Positions 1 through 63,950 of a stretch of DNA of 64,000 nucleotides are shown here, piece by piece. The position numbers were made by a program, and so were the translations under genes. Each line of letters starts with the position of its first letter. Position 1 is the stretch's first letter. The notes beneath the pieces were generated by a model. It worked only from the letters and a program-made list of their open reading frames with translations, ran no database searches and was not told the origin of the DNA. This DNA is from Mytilus galloprovincialis (lineage: Eukaryota; Mollusca; Bivalvia; Mytilida; Mytilidae): positions 6,019,001 to 6,083,000 of the forward strand of contig NC_134846.1 in NCBI RefSeq assembly GCF_965363235.1, written 5' to 3'.

Positions 1-726
1 CCGTCAATTAGCTTCATTATTTATAATTCCCATCTAACAAGGTCGTTTTGCTCCAAAAATTAATTTGATAGTTTCGATATTGTTTTGTACACAATTTTTC
101 ATAAGTTGATTATTTTTGAGTTTTTTGTAGTGTGATTTGATTTTGAATTGTATTTTTTTGGCTGTATTTCCTGAAAATGAATAGTTTTGTTGATTAAATT
201 TTGACTTTTTATAAAATTTACTCGAATCCTTTAGATCAATTTTCCTGTATAATGGCTAGTTATAGTAATAAAGTTTACTCCTACTAGGCACACAAGGAGA
301 AAGAATGGAAAAAATGCATGGTGTGTCAATGTTCTACATCAGAGTAATTAATATGTATGCGAGCGGTCAATGTATGTGAAGAAATGGTGACTTTGCTTTC
401 TCTCGGAGGTCTACTTCCTATACACAAGGTGATAGGATGTTCCACAAGAATATTTCATGTTTTTAGGCTTGAAAATATTTAGGTCGGGAAGACTATCAGC
501 AATATATGAGTAGATCAATAAAGTTCCCATAACTTGTTCGTCTGTAATCCTTCTTAGAGTTCCCCCCCCCCCAACCCAGTCCCGAGGCATCTACATATAA
601 TTCAATGCGAGAATTCATGCGTTGTTGCTGTTTTTATTAGATACGATCTCAAACATTTAATAAAATCTGCCGAAAGAGACCAACGAAATAGAGTAAATTC
701 GAGCCAAAAGGTATTTCAGGTAATAG
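1..726. other. No gene seen; AT-rich flank
   Basis: I see no coding exon, RNA gene or recognisable repeat here. The only compositional oddity is a short run of Cs near 565-574. Confidence 0.5.
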
Positions 727-1345
727 AAGAGGGACGAAAGATACCAAAGGGACAGTCAAACTCATAAATCTAAAACAAACTGACAACGCCATGACTAAAA
801 ATGAAAAAGACAAACAAACAACAGCACACATGACACAACATAGAAAACTAAAGAATAAACAACACGAACCCACCAAAAAACTAGGGGTGATCTCAGGTGC
901 TCCGGAAGGGTAAGCAGATCCTGCTCTACATGTTGCACCCGTCATGTTGCTTATGTGATAACAAATCCGGTAAATAGTCTAATTCGGTAGGTCACATTTA
1001 TGAAAGGGAAGGGGATTGTAGTTACGACGTAAGGAACATATTCGATATCATTTGTGAAACGGTTATTCCATAACGGTCAACCAACTCGTGATTGCGTCCG
1101 TAAAATTTACGAAGGGATGATTTCAACTTCACCATTTGAAACTCTTGGTTTTATAGCTTCCTTGTGAGCAGCAACCCTCTAGCAAGAAAATCTTGATAGG
1201 AAATGCAAGCACGGGACTATCGTATCAATTGGGAGATATATACCCCGTCTGCAGGTGCTGCTGGAATGTTGCTACTTAGAAATGGAAAGTACGTTCACAA
1301 TTGGAAAGCTGAAATCATCTCTTTTGTCGTAAAGTTTGTCAATTA
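727..1345 (-). mobile_element. 3' end of a retroelement (RT C-terminus plus 3' tail), broken
   Basis: On the minus strand, about 1345 down to 1005 reads as the C-terminal end of a reverse transcriptase of the kind whose catalytic part carries GIPMGTNCAP and a YIDD-type motif. Recognisable phrases include IPAAP, GVYISQLIRYSRAC and FYGRNHELVDRYGI. It is followed by a shared 3' tail (about 1000 to 727) that recurs at 42058-42246 and 48304-48581. I infer a Penelope-like or other non-LTR retroelement; the family is not certain. It is an old, inactive piece. The reading frames in its tail are by-products of the repeat, not genes. Confidence 0.75.
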
Positions 1346-1564
1346 CTAGGTGTAAGTCAAGATATAATGCCGACTTAACTTTATTTGTAGTATCCTTTAT
1401 CTCTAGCTCGAATAGATGGTCGTTCCATACCAGACTATAGAACCTGATCGCAAATAAACAAGCGTTACTTAAATATCTAGGTGATTTTACTCATTGTCAT
1501 CATGCTCAGTACCCGGTGTTGACGTCAGAACAGGATAAACTGTATTTTTGTTGACCCAATTGTC

Positions 1565-2200
1565 GTGACGATGTTACATGTGTTATCTTCCACAGGGTTA
1601 ACTGACTGCCAGAAAGAGGCAGACAGGCGAAAAATCCTGCATGCAATGTGTAATGTTGAAGAGTTTGGAAGGCAAAACAAGAAGGGTCGAATTATTACAA
1701 AGTCGCCAGATACAGATGTCCTTATTCGTTGTGCGTATTTTTTTTTTCATCAATGAAAAACACCCATAACTATGGTTTCAAAGACGAATAACTAGCAATA
1801 AAGATGGACGTAGATTCCATCCTGTACATGAATTGTGCAGTGTGTTGAACCATTTTATGTGTAAAGTTTTGTCTGCTGTGCATGCTTTGACAGGTTGTGT
1901 TCGGAATCGGGGGGAAACAAGTTTAAAAGGACAATCTTGGAGACTTGATTTAGACCATTTGTCAGCGGTGACATTGCTATGTTGATGTCAGCCGGACATT
2001 TGTTGCAAGACTCTATGACCAGAAACGGAAAGCTAAATTTGACCACAGTGATTAAAATAAACTCCGTGTAAATAAAGCTAAACAAAAAGATATCTTAGCC
2101 CAACTACCCCAATGCAAATCAACTTTTCTGCAACATGTTCTGAGAGCTTCATTTAAGACAACTACTTGGACTTCTTCAAATATTGCACAGCAGTCTGTTT
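1565..2200 (+). mobile_element. Decayed remnant of an EADTR/SPDTDV mobile-associated gene family
   Basis: The first 60 codons read VLSSTGLTDCQKEAD..., then KSPDTDVLI. This resembles a protein family that is highly repeated in bivalve, cnidarian and other invertebrate genomes and is characterised by EADTR and SPDTDV blocks. Further downstream, the stretch near 2100-2180 recalls the family's QHVLRA..T..W block. The role of the family is unknown to me and its mobile nature is inferred from its copy number. The copy is broken and old. It lies just downstream of the RT tail, so the two may have been part of one larger insertion. Confidence 0.5.
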
Positions 2201-2369
2201 TAGACTTCGGGTAGGAAGACACAAAAGGATTAACCCGAACTTTGTCCGTGTCAAGGCAGTGAAGCGTGCTGTAATGCTAATACGCGTATTGAATCCGCAA
2301 ACGATGACAAAGAGATTGACCCATATCTACGATTCTTGTAAACAATGTTCCAATGTAACGTTTTGATTT

Positions 2370-4680
2370 TTTTACAGGCAGTTTATCCCTGTTTATGGAA
2401 TACTATATTTGTTGGAATGTAGCTTTTCAATGACAAGTCATATATGATTCAAACTAGCATTAGTATCCATCATTCTCCAAGACAATTGACGAGTATTCAC
2501 ATTTGTAATGGCAGCCCTCTACATAATCAATCAAATTTGTCGTTTTGACATCCTTGGAAGAATATGCTTTTGATTTATTTGTTTTGTAGCATTTTTATGC
2601 ATTATATATTAGAAAATTCTCGTTTTTTCCTCATTGTTGAATTAATGATATTTTCAGGTTTGATCGTTTACACCAATTTCAGAAATTTTGACCATTGTAG
2701 GTTTTTACGACCAAAATTTTCTTAATGTACACAATTTTCATCTTTCGTCGATATATAATTTAGATGTGTATTCTTCTGGAACAATAAAGTTTAAAAAATG
2801 AACTTCAGTTGCAGTACTGTATTATACAGAGCGATAAACCATGCCTGTAAATGGAGACAAACTAACATTTAAAGATGCGTAACTGACTCTATGGAGGTTC
2901 TACATACGTAATTTGCAGCTTATTTTAACAGCTATATCACACCATAACGATTAACGTACAGTCGAATATTACCAATTGAAATGAAGATTGGATTCGAAAT
3001 TAAATACCTTTTGTACATTTTTAGAAACATACCATAATATGAGAACCTTTTGGTTCTCATTTGATCTTTCTCTGATTAAAACATTGTCTTCTTGAATTTC
3101 CGCTCTTTACAAACGTTCTTATATATTATGATTGAACATCGAAAAAATATTTGTAGCTCTTAAATTCACAAATGAAGCAACACAATTGAGCAAGGCATAG
3201 TTTGATCACTTCTCTAGCTGACTTTCAGAATAGTTTAAACATATTTTATTTTCAAAAACATTGACAATATGATTAGACACAAGTTTTGCAACTTATAACG
3301 TCTTCTCCATTACATACAAATAATAAATAACCGAACAAAAATAAAATACATAATTAATAATAACATCATAAACTATATTAGTATGAAGACATGCAATTAA
3401 CAAGAATTTAAACGACATGGCTCATCAATTCCTAAAAGTCGAGTTGACCGTACATTTTTTATGATAGACCTACGGAATGAGGATCATTTTTCACCCTTTT
3501 GTTATATATATTTTTTGTTTTACTTTTAATACAAATGTGTTTTAGGAAGAAAGGGGTTCATAGTGTACAGCGTTCTTGTAGGCTCTTTCGTGAACCTTCT
3601 TTTTTTATTTGCAACCAAGCAAACGACTGGCAATGTGATTCTTCAGAGGGATTTTTAAGTTCATATTTCCGGGGCCCATCAATTTTCAACCGAGAGTTTA
3701 TCTCATATAAGTTCTGTCAAAAATGGTTATGAATATATTCGTTTTAATCTTTTATTAAGCGAGTTAGGGGCTGGTAACAAATCATTTACCAATCATCAGA
3801 ATTTAAAATAGCAACCTGAATTGAATTCTGAACAATCCAACCCATAATGCATCTATAAATCAACTCCTTTTCCTATTTTATTTCTGGATATTAAGTATGC
3901 ATTATAGTTTACATCAGACAAAATAGATAGAATTACGGCAAGCTAGAAAAAACCCAGTAAAATATCGTTTCATCTCGGCCTCTACTAAGTGTTCTACAAC
4001 TAATCTTTCAGTGTTGTTAACAAATTCATCAACTACTATCAAATAGCTTATCGTAAACTATAGTAATAAAATATATAAAAATAGTTAAATTTACTATTTT
4101 TTTTGTGTAAAAATTCTTTAAATGTTTAAGATAAATTACGTGCTTCTGATTGTTCTTTTGATTCTATTGACAGTTTTGATCTTTTACACTTTACACTACA
4201 CTTCCACACACTCTTATCAAACACCAGTTTTTCTATTGAACTAAATAGCTGTTTGGTGAATCTGAATGCAAATATATTTGCTGCAACTCATTTAAAACAT
4301 TCTCCTCAAATGAGAAAGGTTAATTTGCTAGATATACTTACTGCAGGTGCGATGAAATGATTGAAGCTATTTTCTACTTGATAATATTTATGTACGTTTC
4401 AGCAACATAGTTTATCGACAGGTTTTTGGTATTCCAATGGGCACGTAATGCACCCCTTTTATAGCAGACTTGTTTTGTACTGTTATGAATTACAGTTTTT
4501 GACCAAACTCAGTGAAGACCCGTCTAAATCAGCAACAAATACCGTTATCTTGATAATTGTTTTTCGTTCAATAATAAAGAATTTTCTAAATATACTGCTG
4601 AAATTTACCCAAATGAGCTTACTTTAAATCTATCAATTTAAACGGTAATGACTGTCCTTTCTTAGAGTAAGATATTTTGG
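2370..4680. other. Gene-poor intergenic DNA
   Basis: AT-rich sequence with short chance frames only. I found no domain, no paired splice sites around a conserved block and no repeat that I recognise. Confidence 0.45.
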
Positions 4681-4850: not shown

Positions 4851-5394
4851 TAACAAGATTTTGTGAGGTAGACGAAATTGACTTTAATACGATCGTATTG
4901 ACTTTTGATGTCCAGAAATAGACAGATCGGACATATATGCATATGTTGACTTTATTTACTTACTACTTAAGTTTTGGATTAAATGTGATTTACATATTCG
5001 AATGAGACTGAAAAATGCTTTTGTTTGGTTATGATAAATAATAATTTTACCTGCCGTAGCCGTGCGTAAAATATATTTCGGTATTTCTCTCAAGAAAATG
5101 ACTTGTTTAATGGAACAAAAAGTCTTATTTGTAAACTTTCTCTTTTGTCTTCACAATAGGCTTTAAAAAAAAAATCTATCAACTGTGTATTCGGAAAACT
5201 TTTTGAAAATAGAAGAAGAAGTGGCAATTCTTACCTCTCATACCTTAACTTTCATTGATAAAGTATAATATTGAATCGTCCAGTGTCCAGTTTGAAGGTC
5301 ATTTTAGTAACCGTACACATTCTTGCACGTTCTTATTAATCAATATTCATGTATGAAACGCATAAACAAGTTTTAAGGTAAACTAATAACAACA

Positions 5395-5505: not shown

Positions 5506-6345
5506 CATTTTTTTTACAGTTAATCATGTTTTAAAATTATAATGGAACTGTTCCCTGTTATTCCGTTTCTTTTGAAAACATCGCCTAAAAGGCATTTCGG
5601 GGGTCTTCGCAAATCATTGATATTAAAGTAACAGATAAAGTTGGTCTAGATCTTTTATAAAAAGTTAAAATTTTGAGAGTAGTATGTGATTTATGTCTAA
5701 GACTTTTGATGTAAATATAGAAATATTGTGTGTTTTATCATGACTACGGCTGAGATTTCTAAAAAACACCTTATTGGTTTTTGATTATTTTTTCTAACTT
5801 TGCCAAATAAGAGGAGATAACTCAGATAAAGTAGTTTTTTTATAATGGAAAGTGTTGTGAGTTTACCTATTTTAATCTGTAACAAGAAAACAAGTTCGGT
5901 GACCCCATTTTTTCTTTTTCGTATCTGAACATGCTGAAAGCATGTAATTATAGCTATCTTCTCGCATTCTAGCTGATAATTCTATCGTGAAGTCTTCTTT
6001 TTATCACACACAGTTTGGTGTTTCATGCATAATCTATACAGAATCTGACAATTTTACACAACCTGTAGCGTGAAAAATGTCCGGTGACCCATACTTTTTA
6101 TTATACTTTGGATAAAAGCATGAGGAAACTTTGTTTTGACAAATTATTAAAACATTCTATCAATTTTAATTAAGACACCCAAGCCACCTTGACAAAAAAA
6201 TTCCGCTCAATTTCTACATTTGTGCCAATAGTTCAACATTTATGAAAATTGTTATATAAAAAAGTCTAAAAGAAGTGGATGGTTCTTAATCTGTAATCTA
6301 AAAGAGATCATTGCATTATTTGGCCTTTTTACCGTTTTTGGATTC

Positions 6346-6392
6346 GAGCGTCACTGATGAGTCTTTTGTAGACGAAACGCGCGTCTGGCGTA
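6346..6392 (+). ncRNA. Hammerhead ribozyme motif, core intact
   Basis: The order of parts is that of a hammerhead. Stem I 5' strand GAGCGTCA is followed by the conserved CTGATGA (6354-6360), stem II GTC/GAC around a 7-nt loop, GAAA (6374-6377), a very short stem III (ACG/CGT, 2-nt loop) ending in GTC, and stem I 3' strand TGGCGT. Predicted cleavage lies between 6385 and 6386. Stem I pairs for six positions, including G-U pairs. It sits in the 3' part of a truncated copy of the interspersed element best seen at 40560-40915. Activity is inferred, not shown. A tiny stem III is known from schistosome-type and Penelope-associated hammerheads. Confidence 0.75.
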
Positions 6393-6483
6393 TATACTAA
6401 ATTTAGTCCTGGCATATATGATGAGTTTATTTATAAAGGGTTTCAACAATTACTGGAACATACGACTAATCTGTTAAATGTTG

Positions 6484-8011: not shown

Positions 8012-8290
8012 GTGTTGACATGAATATCAATTATATGGTCATTTTATAAATCAACAGTTTTCAAAACTACGAATTATTCAAAATACTAAGGATTTTCTCA
8101 TCCCAGGCATAAATTACCTAAGCCGTATTTGGCACATGTGTTTTTGGAATTTTTGGTCCCCAATGCTCTTTAACTTTATACTTGTTTGGCTTTCTAACTT
8201 TTTATATCTGAGTGTCAATAATTAGTCTTATGTAGACGGACTTTGCGTCTAGGGTATCAAATTACAAGCCTGGTACCTTTGATAACTATT
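8012..8290 (+). mobile_element. Diverged copy of the hammerhead-bearing element
   Basis: It aligns block by block with 40648-40915: GTTGACATGAATATCAATTA, then AAGGATTTTCTCATCCCAGG, GCCGTATTTGGCACA, CTTGTTTGGCTTT, and the 3' end CCTGGTACCTTTGATAACT. The ribozyme core at 8210-8260 has decayed: the CTGATGA and GAAA elements are both lost. This is an old copy about 440 bp upstream of the GPCR. Confidence 0.75.
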
Positions 8291-8825: not shown

Positions 8826-9761
8826 ATGAATTTTACTAGTGCAGAAAATCAGACGAGTCTTGGTCAAAATTATTTATTTGCAAGAATAAATTCCGGAATT
8901 GGGGTGTTATCGATGGTGCTAAACTTTGTAGTGCTTGTAGGATTTTTAACAACCAAAACACTTAGAGACAATTCATTTTATAGGCTACTTATCCCGATAA
9001 TTGCAGTTCGTTTTATAGGATCAACAGGTTTGTTTGGATATAACATTGTAATTATTACATATTTGGAAAGAATCAAGTATATATGTTTTATAAGTATGGC
9101 AGTTGGAATGCTAATGACGGTATTATCAACAATGCAAACCGTCGTCGTGTCTTTTGACCGTTGCTAAGCATCATTACCATTACCTACCTCCGTTATCCTC
9201 AGAAGAAGAAAGATTCTTATTTGTATTGCTACTACAGTTTGGTCATTAATATTTCTCAGTATGGTATTTATTTCAGCTGTAAACATTGGCGATGGAGACT
9301 GTTACGCCTTGCAATCATTTCATACCAATCCAGAATCTAGTATGCTCGGTTCTGTAGTCCTTTTTGTAACCCTTCTTGTTGATATTATGTTTTGTATATT
9401 AACTTTGCGTAATATCCGAAAGAAATATCATTCAGTCGGTATAATGATGTTTACTACTAAGTCAAATCCAACAATAGTGTGCCAACGAGGTATTAACTTG
9501 TTCGCAACGCCTTCCTTGCAGACAAAATTGAAAAATAAACGTCATGCTCTAGTTGTGGTGTTGTTTGTTGTTGTAACACATGCAGTGACATATTTGGCGC
9601 GAATAGTCATGATAATCTTCATTAGACTGGACACTTTAGAAATAAACAGTATGAACGATATTTTCATTTTATTTAACTTCCTTACGTTTATATTTGACGC
9701 CATTTTCTGCATCATTTCAGTACGTCCATTGCGAGAGATATTTACACGAAATTTTATTTGA
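8826..9761 (+). pseudogene. Class A (rhodopsin-like) GPCR, interrupted
   Basis: A single reading frame of 311 codons that would give a seven-helix receptor if read through one stop. The N-terminus has glycosylation sites NFT and NQT. TM1 contains the conserved Asn (VLNFVV), a Cys precedes TM3 (YICF), and TM3 ends in SFDRC, a DRY-type motif. TM5, TM6 (HALVVVLFVVV) and TM7 follow, ending in a short helix-8-like LREIF. The frame stops at 9165-9167, right after DRC. Between about 9163 and 9206 the shifted frame reads LLSIITITYLRYPQ, a convincing second intracellular loop, so two compensating indels are likely, not one point change. The Asp of TM2 and the Asn-Pro of NPxxY are not recognisable (VRF and DAIF instead). 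I chose the ATG at 8826, before the glycosylation sites. A TTTTAG acceptor-like site at 8783-8788 leaves an upstream exon possible. The ligand cannot be told. Confidence 0.75.
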
Positions 9762-15500: not shown

Positions 15501-18500
15501 ATAGTGTTACTATACAAATCCTTTGAAGAACAATTAACTAAAAGAGAGGAGAAATACATCATATTTAAATACTTTTAAACAACATTACTATATTCTTAAA
15601 GAGAATTATTTATGATATTATTTATTTTGAATAATATTAAAGTAAATGTGTTAACATGGCCTAAGTCCAGGAATATTACAAAATTCTTGGGCATGTTTTG
15701 ACCATTTAATACCAGATAGATAGTTCTTTGGGAAAATATCAGCTCTTTTGTACTAAAAAGTTTTATTTACAAAAAAAAAATATTGTAACTTATATTGACC
15801 CCTCATAAAAAGGATATTTATAAAATTGAGGGGTTGTTCCCAACCTGATTATGACTTGGATGGAGAATTGTCTCATTAATTGGCACACATACATATACCA
15901 AATCTAATTATTCAATTATCTATTGGTGAACAGGGAAAAATACTTCATAAATGAAAGAAATGTCAAAGTACAAGTGATAAATAAAGTTTTAATATTGTCA
16001 AAACCTACTATTTTATGTTTACAAAAAAAAATATAATCGCTCGCCTTTACTTTTCAAGCTTCGCCTCAAAAATTTGCAAAATAAATATTTTTTTATTAAA
16101 ATTTTCAAATCGTTCGCTCGCCCCAATTTTTGAAGTCCAAAAATCCGTAGAACAAGAAATTAAATTGGTGTGGCCTAACCCCATTTATCTTTTAATTAAG
16201 ACTTAATAACTCATAAAATGTCATTTACCAAAATTTAAGCAGATTCTTGATGCTTTTTCTTTTGATTTGAAACCCAAATAATACCAAGGCAAATATAAGG
16301 TAAAAGTCAAAGTCAGCCTTTTCCCGCCATACTTTAAAAATCAAATATCTCGAAAAGGAGCTCCATGACCTATCAATATTTAAAGGTTCTTTTGTTTTGT
16401 AACTAATATTCTTTCGACTGAAAGTATCAATTTTAAGTTCTTGATATATTGAATTTCCCCTAATCACATCTTTAATTTGTATTTTAAATCACAATATGAA
16501 CATTTCCTTTTAATATGTACCTTTACATGGTGGTGTTTCTGGACATGCCACACGAGAACCTTCATGTTCTTCGCCATTTGTATCAACACACCAACAATCC
16601 TGCTGATTGCATTGTATTTCATCAAAATCTCCAGTGGCTGTGCACACTGGTTCGTGTTGTGTTCTAAACTCTCTTTTAAACAAGACTAAACTTAATAAAC
16701 AATTCTTTAAATTTTCCCCTGTTGAAATAATATGAAAAGAAGGTATTCTAAATTTGTAAATCAAATTGAAATCTAATTGTAATATTGCAAGAAAAATATC
16801 CAAAATGCACACATGCACAGGTAAGATGTATTAATATATCTTTGCACATATTTAATTTTGGCATTAAACTTTAAACATTAAAAGTTTTACATCAATAGTC
16901 GAAATCAAAAATCTCGTCTTTCGGCTTACTGTTTGTGCATACCTCAAAGGATCTCATTATAGATACCAGGATTAAATTTTTGTATTTACGCCAGACGCAG
17001 AAGACTCATCAGTGACGCTCAGATAAAATAAAAGTTAAAAAGGTCAAATAAAACACGAAGTTAAAGTGCATTGTGGACCAAAAAGTTTGGACAAATTACT
17101 AGCTAAGGTAATCTATTTCTGATGTAGAAAACCTTTAGTATTTCAAAAATTCTACAAAATAAAACGAGTTTTATTTAAAAGTGATAACATATTCGAAGGG
17201 ATAAAAACAGGTCAGTATGCTTTTTACTAGTGTTGTCAAAGGTTAACCAGTCAACCGGTTAATCGTTCGAACAACCGAATACCTAATACCAAAAATGCTA
17301 ACCGGTTAACCGGACTTTTTTTCAATTTTAATAGATGATTTGATATAAATTTGTATTGAAATCATTAAATATTAATATTGTCTTTAAGAATTTTCGTCGT
17401 GGTAATTAATTTGACAGATCAATTGTCCAGTATATTGATTGCTATTGTTAATCCAAAAATATAAATTAATTAGAACTTGTCTCTCATCTTGGGACAAGAT
17501 ATTAAGGAAACATAATTAGTTACATGTTTTTTTTAACAGTAACTTTAAATCAATAATACGATTAAATTTTACGATTTACTTCATTATTTCATTTTTGATC
17601 TAATTGTGTAGACCTACATCTGAATGTGCAATCTCCGTCGTGCAAGTCTTTGTCATATTTTAAACGAAAAGCTAACTCAAAAACTATATATAAAAAAACA
17701 ACGTAAATGTAATCGATATATACTTGATGGATGGATAAATCAATCAAAAATAAAATACTTAACATTATTTTCGGAAACGACAAGTGAAAAAGAAATACAT
17801 ATTCAAATTTACGAGATCAAGATTTTTTTAATTATTTTTCAAGTTCAAACGCCATAGTTGATACCGTGTATTTGATTAAAAACCAAACTTCGACAGGAAT
17901 CTTCACAGACAAGCATTATAATAAAGGACAAACTTCAATTCATGGTATTATAAAAACGTAAATGTATGACTTGAATGGAAGGGATTCACATTGACACTCA
18001 TACCACATCTTCTTATATTTATGTGTAGGGTACTATTGAAAAGACTTTCAAACATCAACTTAAACCACAGGTTAACCGGTTAATCGGTCGAACGATTATC
18101 CGAGTAAGCGGTTAGGCAAAAGTGTACGATTTGACAACACTACTTTTTACTAATTTGTGATTTTTCTATATTAAAATATTTGTCCATTTTTTTCAATAGT
18201 CGTGTCATCTTCTCTTAGTAAGTATTATATCATTCTCCGCTCGTATTTCGTATTATGTATTATGTATCATGTATTATGTATTATGTATTATGTATCATGT
18301 ATTATGTATTACATGTATGTATCATGTATTATGTATTATGTATTATATTTTGCTCATGCACACCTCTATATTTATAACAATACAACAACAATATACTTTA
18401 TTTGGAAACACTCAGATACATATTTACATGTGCAACAAGAGGCAAAATACATAGTCATTATTATGGTTACTACAAAACAATATATATTATGTTAACATAT

Positions 18501-21500: not shown

Positions 21501-24500
21501 TTCGTAAGAGGGTTACAACTAAAGAACAAAGGTTCAACATTTAAGGCACTTTCTATGTAGTTTTTAATTTAATCCGCTTTTTAAAATATTATGATAATAC
21601 ATTTAATAACTAGTTCATAAGTTGGATGCATATCACGAATTTTAGTTACAATAATTACTGTTTTATGATAAGGAATAATACTTCAAAGTTTACCTTTCAC
21701 CGTTTGACCAAATACTTCCAATCCGTATGGTTTATCTATGATTCCTAGTTGGTAAGGATTAGACTGATGTTTATTGTCTGTTTTGTTGATCATTTGGATA
21801 TAGCCCGAATTATAATTTGCCCATATGATATGAGAACCAACTATAACAAGCCCAAAGGAACTGTTCTTTTCTGTTTTTAAATTGATTACAACTGTGACGT
21901 CACTTCCATCAAACTTGGAAGATTTAATGTCATGAAGCTTTTCATCTGCCCAATAAATCCTGAGTTGTATTTGATCTTCAAAGATATTTAAAATAAGATA
22001 TTGTAGCAACCCTGGTTTGTTGTCGATATGAATTAAAATTTCAGGCTTAAATACAATGGAAATTATTGGTTATGATATACTTAAGTGAGGTTTAGGAATT
22101 TGTGTCAGATGTTTGGACTCATTGTTTTTACCTACGATACAGGCTAAATCATTTCGCCCCATAACACCCATTTTTGCCATGTAAGACTTCAATAGATCAC
22201 AAAAGGTCGTTAACCAAAATTTAAGCAGATTCTAGTTATCGTTTCTTTCGATTTGAGATTCAAGTAATACCAATGCAAATATAAGATAAATGTCCGAGTC
22301 AGCATTTTGACGTCATTTTTAAAAACTCCAATTTCTCGAAAATTTCGTTCAACGTAATCAGTACGATATTTTACGTTTGAAGTTAGATTCAAAACAAACC
22401 GGACATAGTTTTATAATATAGTTAATTGCTACCTTAGTTTTATATTAATAAGTATTAAAATGTGCTTTGTTATTAAATGCAATATCAGTATTTAGTTCTA
22501 ATACATAATCTTAAATCAATCCTAATTCTATCTTATTCATTCTTATGTGACGTCATTTTTCATTTTTTGATGATCTGTTTTACAAATTCAAATGACGTCA
22601 TTTTTTCGTCATTTTTCAGTTTCAAATAGGACGTCACTTGGCGTAGAGGTTTAAACTTATTCGGATGTGTCTACTTTTGTGTTTCAAATGTCTGGTTATG
22701 TAAATGTATTTCAGTTGTTTCCTGTAATTAGTTAATACTTCAGTTTTATCATGTACATCTATTGTATATTCATTTTATAAAATTTACTGTTTGCAAAAGT
22801 ATAAATTATTCTAAATTATAGGGATTTTCTGGTAACTAACAGAAAACCCTTGCCGTTTTTGGCACAACCTTTTTGATATTTTGGTCCTCGATGCTGTTCA
22901 ACTTTGTACTCGTTTCGGCTTTCAAACTTTTGTATCTGGGCGTCACACGTAGGTCTTGTGTGGACAAAATACACTTCTGGCGTATTAAAATTTTGAACTT
23001 GTTGCCTTTTGTTGGCTGTTGTTCGTGTGATTCTTTGTCAATTGTGTTCTCCAATTTATTTATATTGTAGTCCTGTGTTGTCATTTTGATGCTATATTTC
23101 AAATGGCCATAAAAGTGCGAGGTTTGGCATGCCACAAAACCAGGTTCAACCCACCATTTTTTCCTTTAAAAATGCCCTGTACCAAGTCAGGAATATGGCC
23201 ATTGTTATATTGTGGTTCGTTTCTGTGTGTGTTACATTATAACGTTGTGTCGTTTGTTTTCGCTTATTTTTGAGTGTAAATTCACATTGCGATAAGACGT
23301 GTCACGGTACTTGTCTATCCCAAATTCATGTATTTGGTTTTGATGTTATATATATATATGTTATATTTGTTATTCTCGTGGGATTTTGTCTATGTGTGTT
23401 ACATTTTAGTGTTATGTCGTTGTTCTCCTCTTATATTTAATGCGTTTTCCTCGGTTTTAGTTTGTTACCCCGATTTGTTTTTTGTCCATGGATTTATGGG
23501 TTTTGAACAGCGGTATACTACTGTTGCCTTTATCTATAACCTTTCAATGATTTAAGCTTATTGTATTCCTTGAATATTAATGATCTTTCAACTTAAAGTA
23601 TCAATTTAACTTCTTAATTTTTCTTTCTTAGTCTGGCATAATTATTTTAAAAGGAAACATTACTCCAGCAAATGATTATCACATTATATAAATAACAAAA
23701 ATGAACATAACAATCATTAAATGAATATCATCATTCGGTAATTTGGTGATTGGAAATACTTGCCAAGTATTATACTTCTTTTCAATAGGATCTTTGATTA
23801 TAATAGTTATTTCAATCTGAAATTCTTTTTACTTCGACTTTTGAAGTCAAATAGCGACATAAACAACTTATAGATGTGGCACCATATTTAACATCAGTCT
23901 TTTGTGCTATGAAAAGATTTTGGGGACATACCTCTTGCACTTACATAGTCATTTCCCGAATTTTGTGTAAAATATATGCAAAAGTTAGTTAGACTTTATG
24001 CGATTGAATTATTGTTGATTTATGGATTTACCTCAAAAATATGTAATCTGCATCCAAAAAAATAGTGATCTGACATTTGGAAGAAAAATGGCAGTAAAAA
24101 TAAAAATGTTATTTGTGGAACTTCCATGGTTCCACGGCAAATTAATATGTATTTATAATATAGTATAAACATAATACTGGATGATTTTTTAAAGTTATTA
24201 AACTGGATTCTATTTTTTATTCATGGTTTTTCATTTCTAGCTACATCGTCTTCCATTTAACACAGAGGAATAGAACAGTAATGAATAAGCATGTATATAC
24301 CTATTGTAATAGCACGTGGTGCACTTATACCAGTCCTAACAAGAACTTGTTGTTTACTTCCATCCATCCCAATGCGGAGAATCTTCGGCACTTCACTAGA
24401 ATCAGCCAAATACATCCATCTGAATAAAATTTGAATCAATAGAAAAAAAAAAAACCCGAATAGATATCAAGTAACAAGCACATGTATTTTCTGTACATAA

Positions 24501-40559: not shown

Positions 40560-40915
40560 TAGTTGTGGAAGTCGTCAACTTCTGTGCTAGACTGTTGGTT
40601 TTCCCGAGGGTATCACCAGCCCAGTAGTCAGCACTTCGGTGTTGACATGAATATCAATTATGTGGTCATTTTTATAAATTTCCTGAATATAAAACTTTGA
40701 ATTTTCGAAAAACTAAGGATTTTCTTATCCCAGGAATAGATTACCTTAGCCGTATTTGGCACAACTTTTTGGAATTTTGGATCCTCAATGCTCTTCAACT
40801 TCGTACTTGTTTGGCTTTATAAATATTTTGATATGAGCGTCACTGATGAGTCTTATGTAGACGAAACGCGCGTCTGGCGTACTAAATTATAATCCTGGTA
40901 TCTTTGATAACTATT
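40560..40915 (+). mobile_element. Interspersed hammerhead-bearing element, longest copy
   Basis: About 355 bp. It runs from a 5' block with TTTTCCCGAGGGTATCACCA, through GTTGACATGAATATCAATTA, AAGGATTTTCTTATCCCAGG, GCCGTATTTGGCACAACT and CTTCAACTTCGTACTTGTTT, to a hammerhead ribozyme and a 3' end CCTGGTATCTTTGATAACTA. No ORF, no pol III boxes and no terminal inverted repeat are seen. Seven further copies or fragments occur in the window. Mobilisation is inferred to be in trans, possibly by a Penelope-like RT, because hammerheads are a known part of those elements. Confidence 0.8.
40835..40882 (+). ncRNA. Hammerhead ribozyme, core intact
   Basis: GAGCGTCA, CTGATGA (40843-40849), stem II GTC/GAC with loop TTATGTA, GAAA (40863-40866), CGCGCGTC, then TGGCGTAC. 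The predicted cut lies between 40874 and 40875. Stem I pairs A-U, C-G, U-G, G-C, C-G, G-U. Stem III is three pairs with a 2-nt loop, so efficient cleavage may need a dimer, as proposed for similar natural hammerheads. Confidence 0.8.
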
Positions 40916-40917
40916 GA

Positions 40918-41085
40918 ATGGTTTTACACTAGTAATGTTGGGCCCTTTATAGATTGTTGTTCGGTGTGAGTCAAGGCTCCGTGTTGAAGGCCGTACCTTG
41001 ACCTATAATGGTTTACTTTTTTAAATTGTTACTTGGATGGAGAGTTGTCTCATTGGCACTCACACCACATCTTCCTTTATTTTGG
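40918..41085 (+). repeat. 'CCTTTATAGCTTGCTG'-family repeat, fullest copy
   Basis: TGGTTTTACACTAGTAATG, CAAGGCTCCGTGTTGAAGGC, GGATGGAGAGTTGTCTCATT and CACACCACATCTTCC. It directly follows the hammerhead element. Other copies are at 15225, 37885, 39110, 52810 and 61990. Confidence 0.7.
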
Positions 41086-41089
41086 AATT

Positions 41090-42057
41090 TGTAATTTTTT
41101 GCAAGAATTAAAACTAATTTCCTTTTAAGTGAACATTCTTGAGTAATTATAAGAAATATATTACTCAACTCAATTATGGATTAAACTCATTTTTTTCTCC
41201 CAAAAATGTGTCTTCAAAGTCAAGGAGTCGACGAAAAAAATTGGTCACAGAAAATTAAAATCGTAATTTTCTTTCTTAACTTCTCGGGAAGCTATGCTGA
41301 ATTTAAATTATGTTATGTAACATAACTTGGACTATAATATGTCAAATTTGTGCCACTTAATACGCTCAGAACTCAGGCCCTATACATGTGTCCCTATGTG
41401 CCATAATAGGGACAATAATTTAATTTTAATTTAATATTCCAAGAGTTAATTTAATATTTATGTTTTGGTAAGTATTTTTACTGCTGTAACCAAATCATTT
41501 TAACACAAAAATATTTTTTACTAAAAAAATACAAGGGGTAGTCAAAATATTTATGAATAATAGATCAAGACAGGATTAAAATGATAAAAAAACAGGAGTT
41601 CCTCTTCATTACTGATACCTGGTCCTACCTTTTTCATTTAAACTTAAAAGAGATCATAATGAAAGTATTCTGAACGTAAAATCTTCATTATTTTGAATAA
41701 AAGGAAATTAGTTTGCAATCCTTGTATGAACAAACTTAATATAACAATAAATGCTGTCTCATTGATTTCATGCAAGTTAGTTAGTTCTAATGAATGGACT
41801 CAAATTAAAAAAAAAACCCACACTAAACCAATAAATAAATGGTGCTTATCATGAACTTGAAAATAAATAAGAACAAAAAAGACTCAGTAATATTTGTCTT
41901 CTTCTATTTGAAAAAAATAATAATAACATTAAAAAAACTGCTGACTGCCATTGAGGATTGTCAGATAAGCGGATCGCTAACAAAATGAATCTACATACGT
42001 TATAAATTGATATACAATGTACGATGCGACTAATGTAAGGAACTCATCATGAATAGG
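41090..42057. other. No supported feature
   Basis: AT-rich intergenic DNA with only short chance frames. Confidence 0.4.
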
Positions 42058-55396: not shown

Positions 55397-58300
55397 ATTT
55401 TTGATTCACGTGCGAGAATAAATATGTTTGGTAAGTAAAATAATCATCAAGAAGCCCTATTCAAGATTTTTACATAAAACAGTTATTGTTTTTCCCTTCA
55501 CGGATATGTTGTATATAACATTGTATCAAATAAAACCAAGCTCCCTTTTGACACGATATTTTAGAGCTTGTTTTTTTCTATCATGATTTTATTTTATATA
55601 GGGTTGTTATTAATATGACAAATACTATCAAAATAGTTCAAAGTGGTGAACTTAAAATCGTCCCTATGACGACTTTATGGACACAATCACGAGCAGGTTG
55701 ACCGTTATCGAATAGCTGTTGCAATGGTGACAACGAATATGTTCCTATTGTCCTAACCATAATCCCGTATTACCGAATTAGACTTATGACCGCTTTGTAC
55801 TCATATAAGGAACACGATGTTGCCTCATGTGGAGCAGGATATGTGTACCTTCCCAGATCACATTGAATACCGTAGTTTTTTGTGTAGATCTTGTTCCCAA
55901 ATAATAATTTTGTAGATTGAAATTTGATTTCCCTAATTTAAGAAAGAATTCTCTTAAGGTGTTCTCTTTGCTCATTTTAACATCAGTAGGCTTTTAAATT
56001 TATAATACATTTACACCGACTGTACACGAGGAGTATAAAGGCACCAGTAGTATACCGCTGTTCAAAAGTCATCAATCGATTAATGGAAAACACACCTGGT
56101 TGTTACAAACTAAACACGAGGGAAACATATCAACTATTAGACTAACCAACGAAACAACAGAACACTGAAGTGCAACAAAAACCCAAACGACAATGCAACA
56201 TACATAGAAACGAACTATTGATAACAACTGCCATATGCCTGACTTGGTACAGGAAATTTTAAGAAAAAATGGTGGGTTTAACATAATATTGACAAATACG
56301 ATGAGCATAGGGAATGATATGCTAGGAAAATTCGGATCCTGTGTATTACAAGGCGGACATGAAAGACACATTGAAAACAGACATTTTAATTTGAGCATGC
56401 AGAACGTAAAAGAAAACCTCATCATTTTTAAACGTGAACAGATATTTATATAAACTTACCTTTAGAAAGCTTTTCAGTTTTGAATTTCCAATTGAGGAAC
56501 ACAAGTGGCGTTGTAATTTATATTTTGACGTGACACACGTGTAGCCTTTAATGCACATAGAGCCGTACTTTGATATCAATGAGAAAGACCAGTGTCATAT
56601 AAGATGTATTGTTGAAATTGAAAATAAATCAATTCTTATTTAAAATTATCAACCTTGTATCTTACACAAGAAATAAAGTTGAAATTTAATTAAATTAGGT
56701 TTTTTTTCTCGGTAAAAGGTGACTTTTCAAAAGTTGCCGATATGTTAAAACGTTCTATTAAAACCAAATAATAGAGTTCGTAAGTGTATTGTAGAGTTTC
56801 TTTATTTTGAATGTTTTAATAAACCTTTTCGCTATTTGTCCTCAATAATTGGATATCACCAAATTATGATGTCTAAAGAATAAAGTTCAAATTTTGCAAA
56901 ATCTCGGATTGGGTGAATTAAATCCATTAATAGTAATACATTAAATTGAGAATGGGGAATGTCTCAAAAGGACAACAACCCGAGTAAACAGCAGAAACAA
57001 CAGACGTTATTTTATCATGATTTGTTTGCAATCCTCACACGATGTCGCCTGATGAAATACTAGACTTTGTCATAGAGTACCACAAAAATACCTCGTAAAT
57101 AGTTGTCAAAGGTACCAGGATTAGACGCGCGTTTCGTCTACATAAGACTCATCAGTTACGCATTAAAACAGCATTAAGACGATTTTTAGCACGTGAACAT
57201 TTAATTAGCAACAGAGGCTACCGTACAAAAAAGAACAAAACAGCTTAACTCAGATGGTTAAGAGAACAAAATGACATCTCACATAAAAGCAAAAGATCAA
57301 AACCCGATATAAGAGTATCAGATATTCTAGAAAGTAGTTCAAATCCAATTTTATTTATAATGAATTATATTTTCCCATACTTGAGTAACAAACAGTTCAC
57401 ATCCAATGAATTTAGTGTAAAAATTAAAAAAAAAGACGATGTGGTGTGATGGTCAATAAGACGATTCGGTACAACTTTACAACAACATAGAAGTTAACAA
57501 AAACAGGTCAACACACTGCATTCAGCAATGAGTAAAAGCCATGCCGCATATATAGCAACTGTTAAAGGCCCCGATATTTCAAGTGTAAATCAAATCATTC
57601 GAGAAAACTAACGGCCTGATTGTAAAATAGATTACAATAATCGTTCATTTTTGTACAAATAACCGCATTCGTATGCAACTTCTCTTAGTCTCTATTGGAA
57701 TTTTATGCGAATTATTATTGAGAGTACATGTTCCATTAATCAGGTAATGAAAAGCTCATGATGAAGCTCAAAATGAAACGAATTGGCAGTAGGAACCATT
57801 CCCCAATTAAGCAACAACATTGGGAACGTCAGATATTGATTGAAAGATTTTGGCGTTTCTTATATGTTCCTCGTTGTTACCCAGAATGATAAAACATAAC
57901 AAACATTGGTAGATGTACATTTTACCGTGTACAAATAGGAAAAATATGCTATCAAAATACTGTAAAAATGATGGAGCATTTGATTTCAGTGTTAAGCTTG
58001 ATTATCGGTGTCACTCTTCTAAATCAATGCAGCGGTAAGTTAACCTTATACAATTACTGACTTTTGATGAGATTGATACAATGATTTGCCAACCCCAGAG
58101 ATATGATATTCACCGACCCAGTGGGGATTTAACATTAAGTTTAGCTATATATTGAGTTCCTGTACTGGTGGATTATACGCAGTGGTGATTTAACATTAAG
58201 TTTAGCTATAGATTGAGTACCTTTAAGGGTGGATTATACGCAGTGGTGATTTAACATTAAGTTTAGCTTTAGATTGAGTACCTGTAAGGGTGGATTATGC

Positions 58301-61102
58301 TTACTAAAATTTTGTTCATAAGATTTAACTTGTAATTATCACTACAGTTTAGTTCTCGTTTACTTCACTCATTGTGGGGGATTTTAGTCAACGTATTTAC
58401 GTAAATGCTCAACATTAAAAATGTCAGCCCGTCGCAGCTAGACAATTATGTGCAATAATTGCTGGAACGTTCTGTACAAAACCAAAAATGAAAATGCATT
58501 TGCAAGTTCGATAGGTTGGCCATGGATTGAGAACAAATTCACACTATTCTGACTGAAATAGTTACAATGAAATAATATAACTCAGTACAAATAACAGATC
58601 AAGTAACAAACAAGAGTAAAACTGTAGATCACAAAAAAATAAACGTAAATAGTATTGCGTACACACAAAACGGAAATATTCTTGAAAACTAATGAATAGA
58701 TTAGCTCAGTAGTAAACGTTTTGTACACCAAGCACGTGTTTCGTCTACCAAAGACTTAGGAGTGACACTTAAATAAAAGGAGTTGAAAGCCAATTGAGAA
58801 CGATACTGAAAAGCATGGAGGACTTACATTTTTTATTGCTATGAAAAATGTTTTGTTAACTTTAAATCTATAGTTATGAACATATCATTGATAATTTGTG
58901 TAAACATAGAAGTGATGACGACATGTAAACATAGAAGTGCTGACGACATTTAAGCATCAGAATGTCAAATTTTAGGATTTCGTTCAGTACGAAAAAAAAA
59001 AACCACACAAGCAATGTTCTTTCTGTTTAATTATATAACTAGTGAGTAATGTAGGGAATCATTTAATGACTGGCCTGCAGAAATTATGATCAACATTTAA
59101 AAAAGAAGAGAAATATATTTTTTTAGGTTTAACATGTCTATCCTGTAATCAAGCATCAAAAATAACAGATTGCCTTACTCAAAAAGCAGTATGCACTGAT
59201 GGATCTGAGGTACTGTGTTCACTAATATCGTTATATCCGTCTTCCCATCGAACATGAATTTCTCCCTCTGGTCTTTTCAGATTATTTCCGAGTAGTACGT
59301 TACGTTCTAAGGGTGGTATATATCCATAATGCAATAAACAGTAGCCGATTGTTAACTCTTTTATTTGATTTAATAACGTCTACATAACAGTATCTTGTCA
59401 CAGACCAGTTATATAAAGCAAATATTGACAAATAGGGATAACTCTATCATGATCTCTATCATGTAAAAAACTGTCACATCTTTGAATTACGAGATTTAAG
59501 CTGTGGCTTTATGTTGATAAAAAAAGAAATCAGAAATTTCTAATTTCAGTGATAGCTCTTTAAATATATATCGCGGAGTTTTGTTTTGTCGTAAAACGTA
59601 TTTATGTTTACGGATTTTGCGCTAGATATGTTTCGCTTAAATAAATAAACTTGAATACAAAAGCAGCTTACGTGCATGATAACTGCTTTTTAATGAATAT
59701 CACCGTATTTTACCACTGCGTGATAACTTTTTTTTTAATTCTGAAGCAAAATTTGAAACTGTTAAAACAACACCAGAGATCCAGACGGAAAATCAAAAGA
59801 GGAGATAATGCCCAGAACCGAATACAACAGCTTTATCGTGAAACAAACTACTTAATCAGATATTAATCCTGAATGAACAGACGACCTTACTGATAATTGA
59901 TTAATCTTTCTGTATTATGTTTCATAAAACCGTCAAATAAGTAAAATTTTAATCAATGAAAATCTTAATCTATTAAGTCAGTTATTAATACTTTGATATT
60001 TTGAAAATCCTCAAAATTATTTGCAATGCTAAATACAATGATATAGGCACTTGAAAAAAAATTATTTCTCTGAAAATCACAAAAAGTGAAGCTGTATCGA
60101 CATCCAACAATGAAAGAGAATAGCATACCTATTGAGTCGAATTATTGTAAACAATTGTTTTCTTACTTATAACAAGGGGCCTCTGTGGCCGAATGGTCTA
60201 AGTAGTTACCACTGTAATCACTAGCCAGTCAACACATAGGATGTGGGTTCGTCTCCAATATTTATTGATAAGAATTGTCAATTTTCCTATCGAAGGTGGG
60301 TGGTTTTCACAGGGCACTCTGGCTTCCTCCACCAATAAAAACTAGCCACCACGAAAAAGCCCAAAATGCGGTGCATAAAAGTGGTGTTAAAACACCAAAA
60401 ATCAATCAAAATCCTACTTAAAACTCCAATTATATCGTGTGATGTTTGTGTTTTGTAATTATTAGATGTCTTACGTGTATCATGTGTAGATCCCAGAGTA
60501 AGTTAAAGATACAATCATTTCAAATATAAGATAAGTATATCTCACTACGACGAGCACATGGCGCATTTGAAATTGATGCCCAATAGTGAGTATCATACAA
60601 ATACAATTTAAACAGCTATGGATTGTTGACTGCTGTACCCCTATTTTTGACATTTTTACCTATTGATTCGTTTTGTTTTGTTCACGCCTCGTTGTCAATA
60701 TTATTGAATTTGATGCGACTGTAATACAGTCAGAGGTTAAGCTAGCTATAAAATAAGGTTCAATCCACTATTTTCTAATAAGAAAATGCATGTACAAAGT
60801 CAGGAATATGACAGTTGTTATCCATTCGTTTGATGAGTTTGAGCTTTAGATTTTGCCATTTGATTAGGGTCTTTCCGTTTTGATTTTTCCTCGGAGTTCA
60901 GTATTTGGGTTTGTAGACGACTTCACATAATGTAATATTCAAATTTAAAGATATATAAAGATTCAATTGTAAAGCAGTTAGTCTGAATAAATGAGGTATT
61001 GTTCAACAACGTTTTTTTTTTGTATCTTAGGAATGTTTTTTAGAAAAAGTCATCCTTGATGATTTATCTGGTGTGTTTTCAGCAGGTTGCAGATCGAAAC
61101 AG
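55397..61102 (+). CDS. Three-finger (Ly6/uPAR-like) secreted protein gene 2, 3' end unresolved
   Basis: Four exons match gene 1 in size and phase: 55397-55430 (ATG 55424, MF), 57939-58034 (signal peptide MMEHLISVLSLIIGVTLL, then NQCSG), 59127-59209 (LTCLSCNQASK...C...C) and 61031-61102 (ECFLEK...AGCRSKQ). The third and fourth exons are exactly 83 and 72 bp, as in gene 1. The ATG pair at 57968 and 57971 inside the signal exon is an alternative start. No stop interrupts the signal exon. The exon for the last disulphide loop (SCGQCC in gene 1) is not found. A possible remnant, TWTIPCFNDIC, lies at 62465-62530 but its splice phase does not fit exon 4. The interval between has been filled by the repeats at 61291-62165, so the 3' part may be lost or may lie beyond the window. 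The product would be secreted; role unknown. Confidence 0.7.
55675..55870 (+). mobile_element. RT-element C-terminus/tail fragment
   Basis: GCAGGTTGACCGTTATCGAA, TACCGAATTAGACTTATGAC and CATGTGGAGCAGGATATG follow the order of the RT C-terminus and tail seen (reversed) at 1080-910. It lies in intron 1 of three-finger gene 2. Confidence 0.6.
56040..56285 (-). repeat. Composite mussel repeat, reverse copy
   Basis: GGCACCAGTAGTATACCGCT, AACACGAGGGAAACATATCA and GCCTGACTTGGTACAGG mirror 28470-28690. It lies in intron 1 of three-finger gene 2. Confidence 0.6.
56948..57008 (-). repeat. GGTCGGGTTGTTGTC-family repeat fragment
   Basis: GAGAATGGGGAATGTCTCAA and GGACAACAACCCG are the uninterrupted reverse version of the repeat split by the solo LTR at 34704. 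Confidence 0.55.
57108..57175 (-). mobile_element. Hammerhead element fragment: core kept, stem I lost
   Basis: On the minus strand CTGATGA, GTC/GAC stem II with loop TTATGTA, GAAA and CGCGCGTC are all intact, but the GGCGT 3' strand of stem I is deleted. The cut site runs straight into TAATCCTGGTACC. The 5' strand also changed (GCGTAA). Cleavage is not expected. Confidence 0.75.
57433..57625 (+). repeat. High-copy mussel repeat
   Basis: CAGCAATGAGTAAAAGCCAT, GTTAAAGGCCCCGATATTTC and GAAAACTAACGGCCTGATTG. Partial matches occur at 5395-5505 (reverse) and 35360-35460. Confidence 0.6.
58119..58300 (+). repeat. Three tandem units of 61 bp
   Basis: Units start at 58119, 58180 and 58241 (CAGTGGTGATTTAACATTAA, TTTAGCTATAGATTGAG, GGGTGGATTATACG) with a few differences. 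It begins 85 bp after the donor of the signal exon of three-finger gene 2. Confidence 0.92.
58725..58800 (-). mobile_element. Hammerhead element fragment with decayed core
   Basis: On the minus strand GTGTCACTCCTAAGTC replaces the CTGATGA core, while TAGACGAAACACGTGC keeps GAAAC and a diverged stem III. It lies in intron 2 of three-finger gene 2. Confidence 0.6.
60179..60412 (+). mobile_element. tRNA-derived SINE
   Basis: The tRNA-like head is GCCTCTGTGGCCGAATGGTC (A box, Leu/Ser-like) and GTGGGTTCGTCTCC (B box). The body has GGCACTCTGGCTTCCTCCAC and ATAAAAACTAGCCACCACGA, with the tail ACACCAAAAATCAATCAA. I recognise the body as a domain shared by bivalve SINEs. It lies in intron 3 of three-finger gene 2. 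Confidence 0.85.
60625..60920 (-). repeat. CTGACTTGGTACAGG-family repeat, reverse, long copy
   Basis: GACATTTTTACCTATTGATT, TTAAGCTAGCTATAAAATAA, CAAAGTCAGGAATATGACAG and TTCCTCGGAGTTCAGTATTT form the reverse complement of the 13005-13245 order. Confidence 0.7.
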
Positions 61103-63581: not shown

Positions 63582-63817
63582 ATAACATAACTATTGTTGA
63601 ATAATTCATCCTAAGGTATGGAGTTTCAAACAAAATTTTATGCTTATGATATACATAATATACATAATATAAGTGATGTTTGCGCCTTTATATAGGTGAC
63701 AACAAAATATCGTACATGTATGATTGAACGAATGGTCAACACAACATTATCTGACTGTGAAACTTATGCAACTTCTTATTTGCATTACATCAATCCATCC
63801 TAGGTACAATAATTATA

Positions 63818-63950
63818 ACCAAAGGTACCAGGATTATAATTTAATACGCCAGACGCGCGTTTCGTCTACATAAGACTCATCAGTGACGCTTAGGTCAAAA
63901 CAGGTAAAAAGCTAAACGATTACAAAGTTAAAGAGCCATGAATTATAATG
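63818..63950 (-). mobile_element. Hammerhead element, 3' part
   Basis: On the minus strand it runs from CTTTTTACCTGTTTTGACCT through the ribozyme to TTAAATTATAATCCTGGTAC and CTTTGGT. The 5' body seen at 40560 is replaced or diverged. Confidence 0.7.
63845..63890 (-). ncRNA. Hammerhead ribozyme, core intact
   Basis: Minus-strand order: AGCGTCA, CTGATGA, stem II GTC/GAC with loop TTATGTA, GAAA, CGCGCGTC, TGGCGTATT. The predicted cut lies between 63852 and 63851. Stem I pairs at six positions, with U-G and G-U wobbles, as in the 40.8 kb copy. Confidence 0.78.

Follow-up and report, generated by a model that had tools for sequence, protein, structure and literature searches.

A hammerhead-bearing repeat of Mytilus galloprovincialis is a retrozyme copy from a family whose insertions nearly always share a fixed 3′ end, consistent with reverse transcription from an internal start on an RNA circle

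Introduction

Within a stretch of 64,000 nucleotides of Mytilus galloprovincialis DNA (GCF_965363235.1, contig NC_134846.1, positions 6,019,001 to 6,083,000; hereafter, the window), a non-coding repeat carries a hammerhead ribozyme, raising the question of how such an element reaches new places in the genome. An earlier note, drawn from the sequence of this window alone, regarded the mode of spread as unexplained; this no longer holds in full, for published work, the main text of PMC7229834 among it, already describes retrozymes of metazoans, the mussel included, together with their circular RNAs. According to that text (Cervera and de la Pena 2020), repeats of 350-390 bp in M. galloprovincialis hold ~5000 type I hammerheads; this non-LTR retrozyme cleaves in vitro and gives rise to abundant RNA circles in gonad and other tissues. 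A 2020 review, in its passages on animal retrozymes, reports no conserved motif in them that helps deduce their helper (PMC7761336). Here, we report that nearly all sampled insertions of the mussel family have a fixed 3′ end, which is the new detail, the family itself being already known.

Results

Extent and ribozyme of the window copy

The element was originally placed at 40560-40915 of the window. Searching the genome (1.385 Gb, 331 contigs) with this query returned at least 98 matches (40 of the 3,915 first-look candidates were scored). Of these matches, nearly all begin at query position 42-44 or beyond, and many genome matches lie 354 bp apart on one contig, forming head-to-tail units. 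Positions in the unit were numbered from the first base 3′ of the ribozyme cut (u1), with a real 354-bp unit from locus L026 as the reference. Alignment to this unit assigned 40603-40874 to u83-354 and 40875-40915 to u1-41, such that the window copy (40603-40915) is a monomer without u42-82. The original 3′ end at 40915 was exact, whereas homology starts at 40603 and not at 40560; in the genome search with 40560-40915, the segment 40560-40602 had no good match in any other copy. The motif TGGTTTT is found on either side of the window copy, offset by three bases. The features of the locus are as follows.

40560-40602, plus strand: flank, outside the family; the best genome matches begin at query position 42-44 and unit homology begins at 40603
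40603-40915, plus strand: retrozyme copy, 313 of 354 bp (u83-354, then u1-41), 310/313 identical to the L026 unit
40837-40880, plus strand: type I hammerhead ribozyme (RF00163, 33.0 bits, whole model), predicted cut at 40874/40875
40875-40915, plus strand: tail of 41 nt between the cut and the fixed 3′ end (...TTTGATAACTATT); in 48 of the 52 insertions kept, the end falls at u36-48

In a search of 701 bases, the Rfam model Hammerhead_1 (RF00163) matched 40837-40880 on the plus strand over its full length, with 33.0 bits and an E-value of 2.6e-6, and the segment presents stem I (GCGUCA / UGGCGU), CUGAUGA, stem II, GAAA, a short stem III and GUC in that order. The full-model match and the ordered core bear out the earlier description of a complete hammerhead near the 3′ end of the repeat, together with its six-pair stem I, G-U pairing included in the count, and its predicted cut between 40874 and 40875. 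The score lies 1 bit short of the gathering score of 34, which explains why Rfam, applied to the entire window with its gathering thresholds, listed no match. Genome-wide, 29 of 70 among the RF00163 matches listed exceed that score (74 of 224,653 candidates scored), so the covariance-model search that had been proposed as a check falls just below gathering in the window and passes it elsewhere in the genome. The core pattern occurs four times in the window (6354 and 40843 on the plus strand, 57128 and 63856 on the minus strand), against an expectation of 0.00 from 100 shuffles. A 37-nt ribozyme segment has 7,677 exact copies in the genome, against 0 for its reversed control. Furthermore, in 35 pieces less than 90% identical, mean identity was 0.86 in the ribozyme versus 0.81 in the rest of the unit, the least conserved positions being u335 and u337 in loop II (0.38 and 0.56). 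We consider it next to inconceivable that an ordinary repeat acquired a hammerhead-like sequence by chance: the score of one bit below gathering in the window speaks for such an accident, but the 29 matches above gathering speak against it, as does the self-cleavage in vitro reported for a published mussel element of equal size in the main text of PMC7229834.

At E<=1e-3, the window contains seven further occurrences of the retrozyme element.

6337-6422, plus strand: short copy whose hammerhead core (6354-6381) is intact, found by core pattern and similarity search
8012-8290, plus strand: diverged copy, also ending at u41
16961-17152, minus strand: old copy, 71%
22729-22989, plus strand: old, decayed copy, 72%
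57095-57161, minus strand: copy with intact hammerhead core (57128-57155), ending at u44
58719-58822, minus strand: old copy fragment, 72%
63808-63936, minus strand: copy with intact hammerhead core (63856-63883), ending at u41

A second interspersed repeat, at about 40914-41093 and within about 30 bp after the retrozyme copy, has parts that match 10 other window places at the same threshold, which does not support the earlier claim that the retrozyme is the most repeated non-coding element of the window. The sole window frame of at least 130 aa lies at 9261-9761 (166 aa, bacterial starts) and has no Pfam match at E<=0.01.

Tandem arrays and identity as a retrozyme

The family comprises thousands of genome copies of a 354-bp unit with one ribozyme each, and its longest array, on contig C1, contains 19 full units. 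The view that each copy bears a single ribozyme is true of the window monomer but false for the family, in which tandem arrays carry one per 354-bp unit. Owing to its single ribozyme, a transcript of the window copy could be cut but could not free a unit circle. Two arrays on C1, C1:28984483-28989163 and C1:29329475-29334160, lie about 345 kb apart with near-equal spacing of exact matches, which suggests segmental duplication.

Alignments of the copies revealed no LTR, that is, no flanking repeats besides the repetition of the unit. The unit contains no frame with the reverse transcriptase and GIY-YIG endonuclease that characterize Penelope-like elements; the longest stop-free run in the tripled unit is 58 codons, in agreement with the initial statement that the element has no ORF. 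The family combines the traits of a retrozyme: a type I hammerhead, head-to-tail units within about 170-400 bp, and neither a coding frame nor LTRs. The element is a copy of an already published kind of mussel retrozyme, hammerhead-bearing and non-coding, and the early suspicion of a mobile, retrozyme-like element of molluscs was correct. Likened by description, it probably belongs to the published mussel family itself. At about 1530-2460 of another locus (L063), a retrozyme dimer lies within a stretch whose flank resembles, by eye, a reverse-transcriptase gene.

The element had further been described as lacking pol III boxes. This is accurate for the B-box in the window copy, where no match was found with up to 2 mismatches allowed, but not for the complete 354-bp unit, which has a B-box-like GGGTCGATGCC at u51-61 (L026 unit), within the u42-82 stretch absent from the window copy, with 1 mismatch to the B-box consensus. 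An equally good site arose in 6/500 shuffles on one strand. A weak A-like site with 3 mismatches lies at u1-12, both A- and B-like sites being present in 4/500 shuffles, and two TTTTT runs follow.

Fixed 3′ ends and random 5′ ends of insertions

To delineate insertion ends, we reduced 99 match chains to 52 insertions by dropping 19 near a locus end, 18 below 85% identity, 3 shorter than 60 bp and 7 with duplicate junctions; the sample was drawn from the best matches, not at random, and two members (L062 and L068) have a common 5′ flank, leaving 51 independent insertions. The 3′ end fell at u36-48, an interval making up 3.7% of the unit, in 48 of the 52, with the mode at u41 (18 exactly there), 41 nt beyond the ribozyme cut. 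Alignments of many copies extend a few bases beyond u41, as expected of chance matches. The 5′ ends, in contrast, ranged from u1 to u335 and were compatible with a uniform distribution (KS 0.11, p = 0.50; 52 insertions). Insertions were no longer than one unit in 22/52 cases and longer in 30/52. When loci were picked solely by ribozyme score, 17 of the 19 insertions kept ended at u39-46, and selection is therefore no explanation for the fixed end.

The four exceptions (L062, L078, L014 and L004) were wholly or partly explained. L062 has 300 nt of 5′ flank in common with L068 (98%), which ends at u42, indicating that the L062 end was altered later; L078 extends to u29 with a longer (doubled) query; and L014 and L004 appear altered close to the 3′ end.

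Exact k-mer counts in the genome changed across the same point. The 20-mer u22-41 has 10,221 copies, of which 2,674 (26%) reach u51 (u22-51), compared with 5,482 for the 20-mer u42-61 and 4,481 for the 29-mer u29-57. Sequence to the left of u41 is thus about twice as common as that to the right, and most right-side copies have the left side before them. The comparison was made at the u41 point of the unit and with one ribozyme 37-mer; the 7,677 copies of that 37-mer show that the drop is not a matter of length alone.

No clear target-site duplication was found, a near-junction match of at least 5 nt occurring in 5/48 insertions against a shuffled mean of 2.8, and the listed 3′ flanks contained no A-tail or simple repeat. 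Searches of open-licence literature, PMC7229834 included, did not bring up a fixed 3′ end at u41.

Clonality of young arrays

Five of the 14 arrays had less than 1% internal divergence, and in these young arrays 0, 1, 0, 1 and 0 variable columns were common with other arrays, versus random-mix means of 37.8, 14.4, 9.7, 18.5 and 10.2 shared columns. Older arrays were less clean, as in L056, with 10 shared columns versus 8.9 for a random mix; across the 14 arrays in total, 44 variable columns were shared and 133 were not. The clonal young arrays fit copying round a circle, although unequal exchange after insertion could also be their source.

Penelope-like elements in the mussel genome

A genome search for GIY-YIG gave at least 147 matches (150 of 1001 candidates scored), and frames combining reverse transcriptase with GIY-YIG measured 911 and 791 aa. 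An Rfam scan of 11 Penelope-like loci (L072-L082) found no hammerhead of their own near the frame, the sole ribozyme among them being that of a retrozyme insert in L078; consistently, blastn of the unit against these loci detected no shared tail, with only the L078 insert at a low E-value, and no helper emerged from these 11 loci. In L078, the 911-aa frame of a Penelope-like element at 630-4183 is flanked on both sides by direct repeats of 370 bp (98.6%) that contain no hammerhead by pattern or Rfam, and the retrozyme piece lies at 5011-5181.

The reverse strand of a hairpin at u78-105 resembles a hammerhead core, and rare variant units carry the full CTGATGA there. We considered this antisense segment as a shared minimal Penelope-type hammerhead, its pattern occurring at 7 places, and rejected it: L083 turned out to consist of retrozyme units in reverse orientation, and Rfam found no antisense hammerhead in L083 or L026 at E<=5.

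Discussion

Our findings make it probable that insertions of this family arise by reverse transcription starting at one internal site of an RNA circle, possibly over several rounds, with a Penelope-like enzyme as the most likely helper. Arrays of 354-bp units would be transcribed, the hammerhead of each unit would cut the RNA at u354/u1, and the unit-length RNAs would be closed into circles; array transcription, cutting and circle closure are described for M. galloprovincialis in the main text of PMC7229834. A reverse transcriptase from another element would then start on the circle at u41/u42, 41 nt past the cut, and copy toward lower u numbers, perhaps for several rounds, before stopping anywhere, and the resulting DNA copy would comprise from 0.2 to many identical units, its 3′ end fixed and its 5′ end random. 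We infer this reverse-transcription step from the insertion junctions: an internal start combined with repeated rounds and random stops would yield the fixed 3′ ends, the random 5′ ends and the arrays, whereas a start at the 3′ terminus left by hammerhead cleavage would give ends at u354, and the observed ends at u41 argue against it. In this explanation, the window locus is a monomeric, 5′-incomplete copy of a mussel retrozyme. A more specific version, wherein the fixed start at u41/u42 precedes a structured, AC-containing stretch and a Penelope-like enzyme copies the RNA circle for variable rounds with a random stop, is tentative and falls somewhat short of probable.

A Penelope-like helper is favored by analogy with elements of that kind, in which reverse transcription is known to start internally beyond a hammerhead and leave a "tail". 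In PMC11167929, as far as its main account goes, Poseidon, the Penelope-like element of Anolis, undergoes an internal reverse-transcription start in vitro, with a tail past the hammerhead. In the mussel, a fixed internal start with such a tail appears as a genomic signature only, in the 48/52 ends at u36-48. The same account gives uncleaved RNA as the main in vitro substrate and ribozyme mutants as without effect on insertion, from which it follows that an internal start does not require a circle. The mussel retrozyme might accordingly use an uncleaved, linear multi-unit transcript as the template for an internal start by a Penelope-like enzyme, the circle being a by-product. This alternative, which predicts an identical fixed 3′ end with random 5′ ends and has the Anolis enzyme as a precedent (PMC11167929), carries appreciable weight but is unlikely: a linear template should transmit mixed units, yet the young arrays are near-clonal while many genome arrays are mixed.

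Other modes of spread leave more of the data unaccounted for. Were the element SINE-like and mobilized by a LINE that begins ordinary target-primed reverse transcription at the RNA 3′ end, the variable 5′ ends would agree with the usual pattern of such insertions, but the linear RNA left by cleavage has its predicted 3′ end at u354 and not u41. The listed 3′ ends also have no A-tail or simple repeat, and target-site duplications are not clear (5/48 versus 2.8), making this route improbable even though the authors of PMC7229834, in its main text, name LINEs as possible helpers. Spread through DNA alone, either as a tandem satellite by recombination or as a DNA transposon such as a Helitron, with the ribozyme a relic, would suit the tandem arrays, one of 19 units, and the two similarly spaced C1 arrays about 345 kb apart that suggest segmental duplication. 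Single and partial copies are, however, scattered over contigs, one end being fixed and the other random, whereas Helitrons have two fixed ends. We regard this reading as very improbable, and the RNA circles published for the mussel (main text of PMC7229834) count against it as well.

If reverse transcription does start at u41/u42 on the circle, the fixed point would be the start signal of the enzyme, and would settle which elements mobilize animal retrozymes. Given that a motif for deducing the helper was wanting, the fixed 3′ end is such a mark, naming the start point and allowing candidate enzymes to be tested. A mussel element of this kind is in itself nothing unusual; its fixed start makes the helper question directly testable.

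Compared by description, the present element showed no difference from the M. galloprovincialis non-LTR retrozyme (MN642551-MN642576) in the main text of PMC7229834: both have a type I hammerhead, 350-390 bp tandem repeats in thousands of copies, no coding frame and low G+C, the published dimeric construct being Mg353. With plant LTR retrozymes (PMC4918200), it has in common the hammerhead, RNA circles and the lack of an enzyme of its own, but not the type III ribozyme, the LTRs or the 600-800 nt circles that PMC7229834 recounts for them. Penelope-like elements, in the main account of PMC11167929, combine a minimal hammerhead with coding sequence for reverse transcriptase and GIY-YIG, unlike the mussel retrozyme with its 41-nt tail and no frame; the Anolis element has its start roughly 85-92 nt beyond the cut, as computed from that paper, versus 41 nt in the mussel. 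In other respects, the mussel retrozyme resembles Poseidon as portrayed there, sharing the hammerhead, tandem or partly tandem copies, ends that do not match the target and an internal reverse-transcription start with a tail, the last of these predicted in the mussel.
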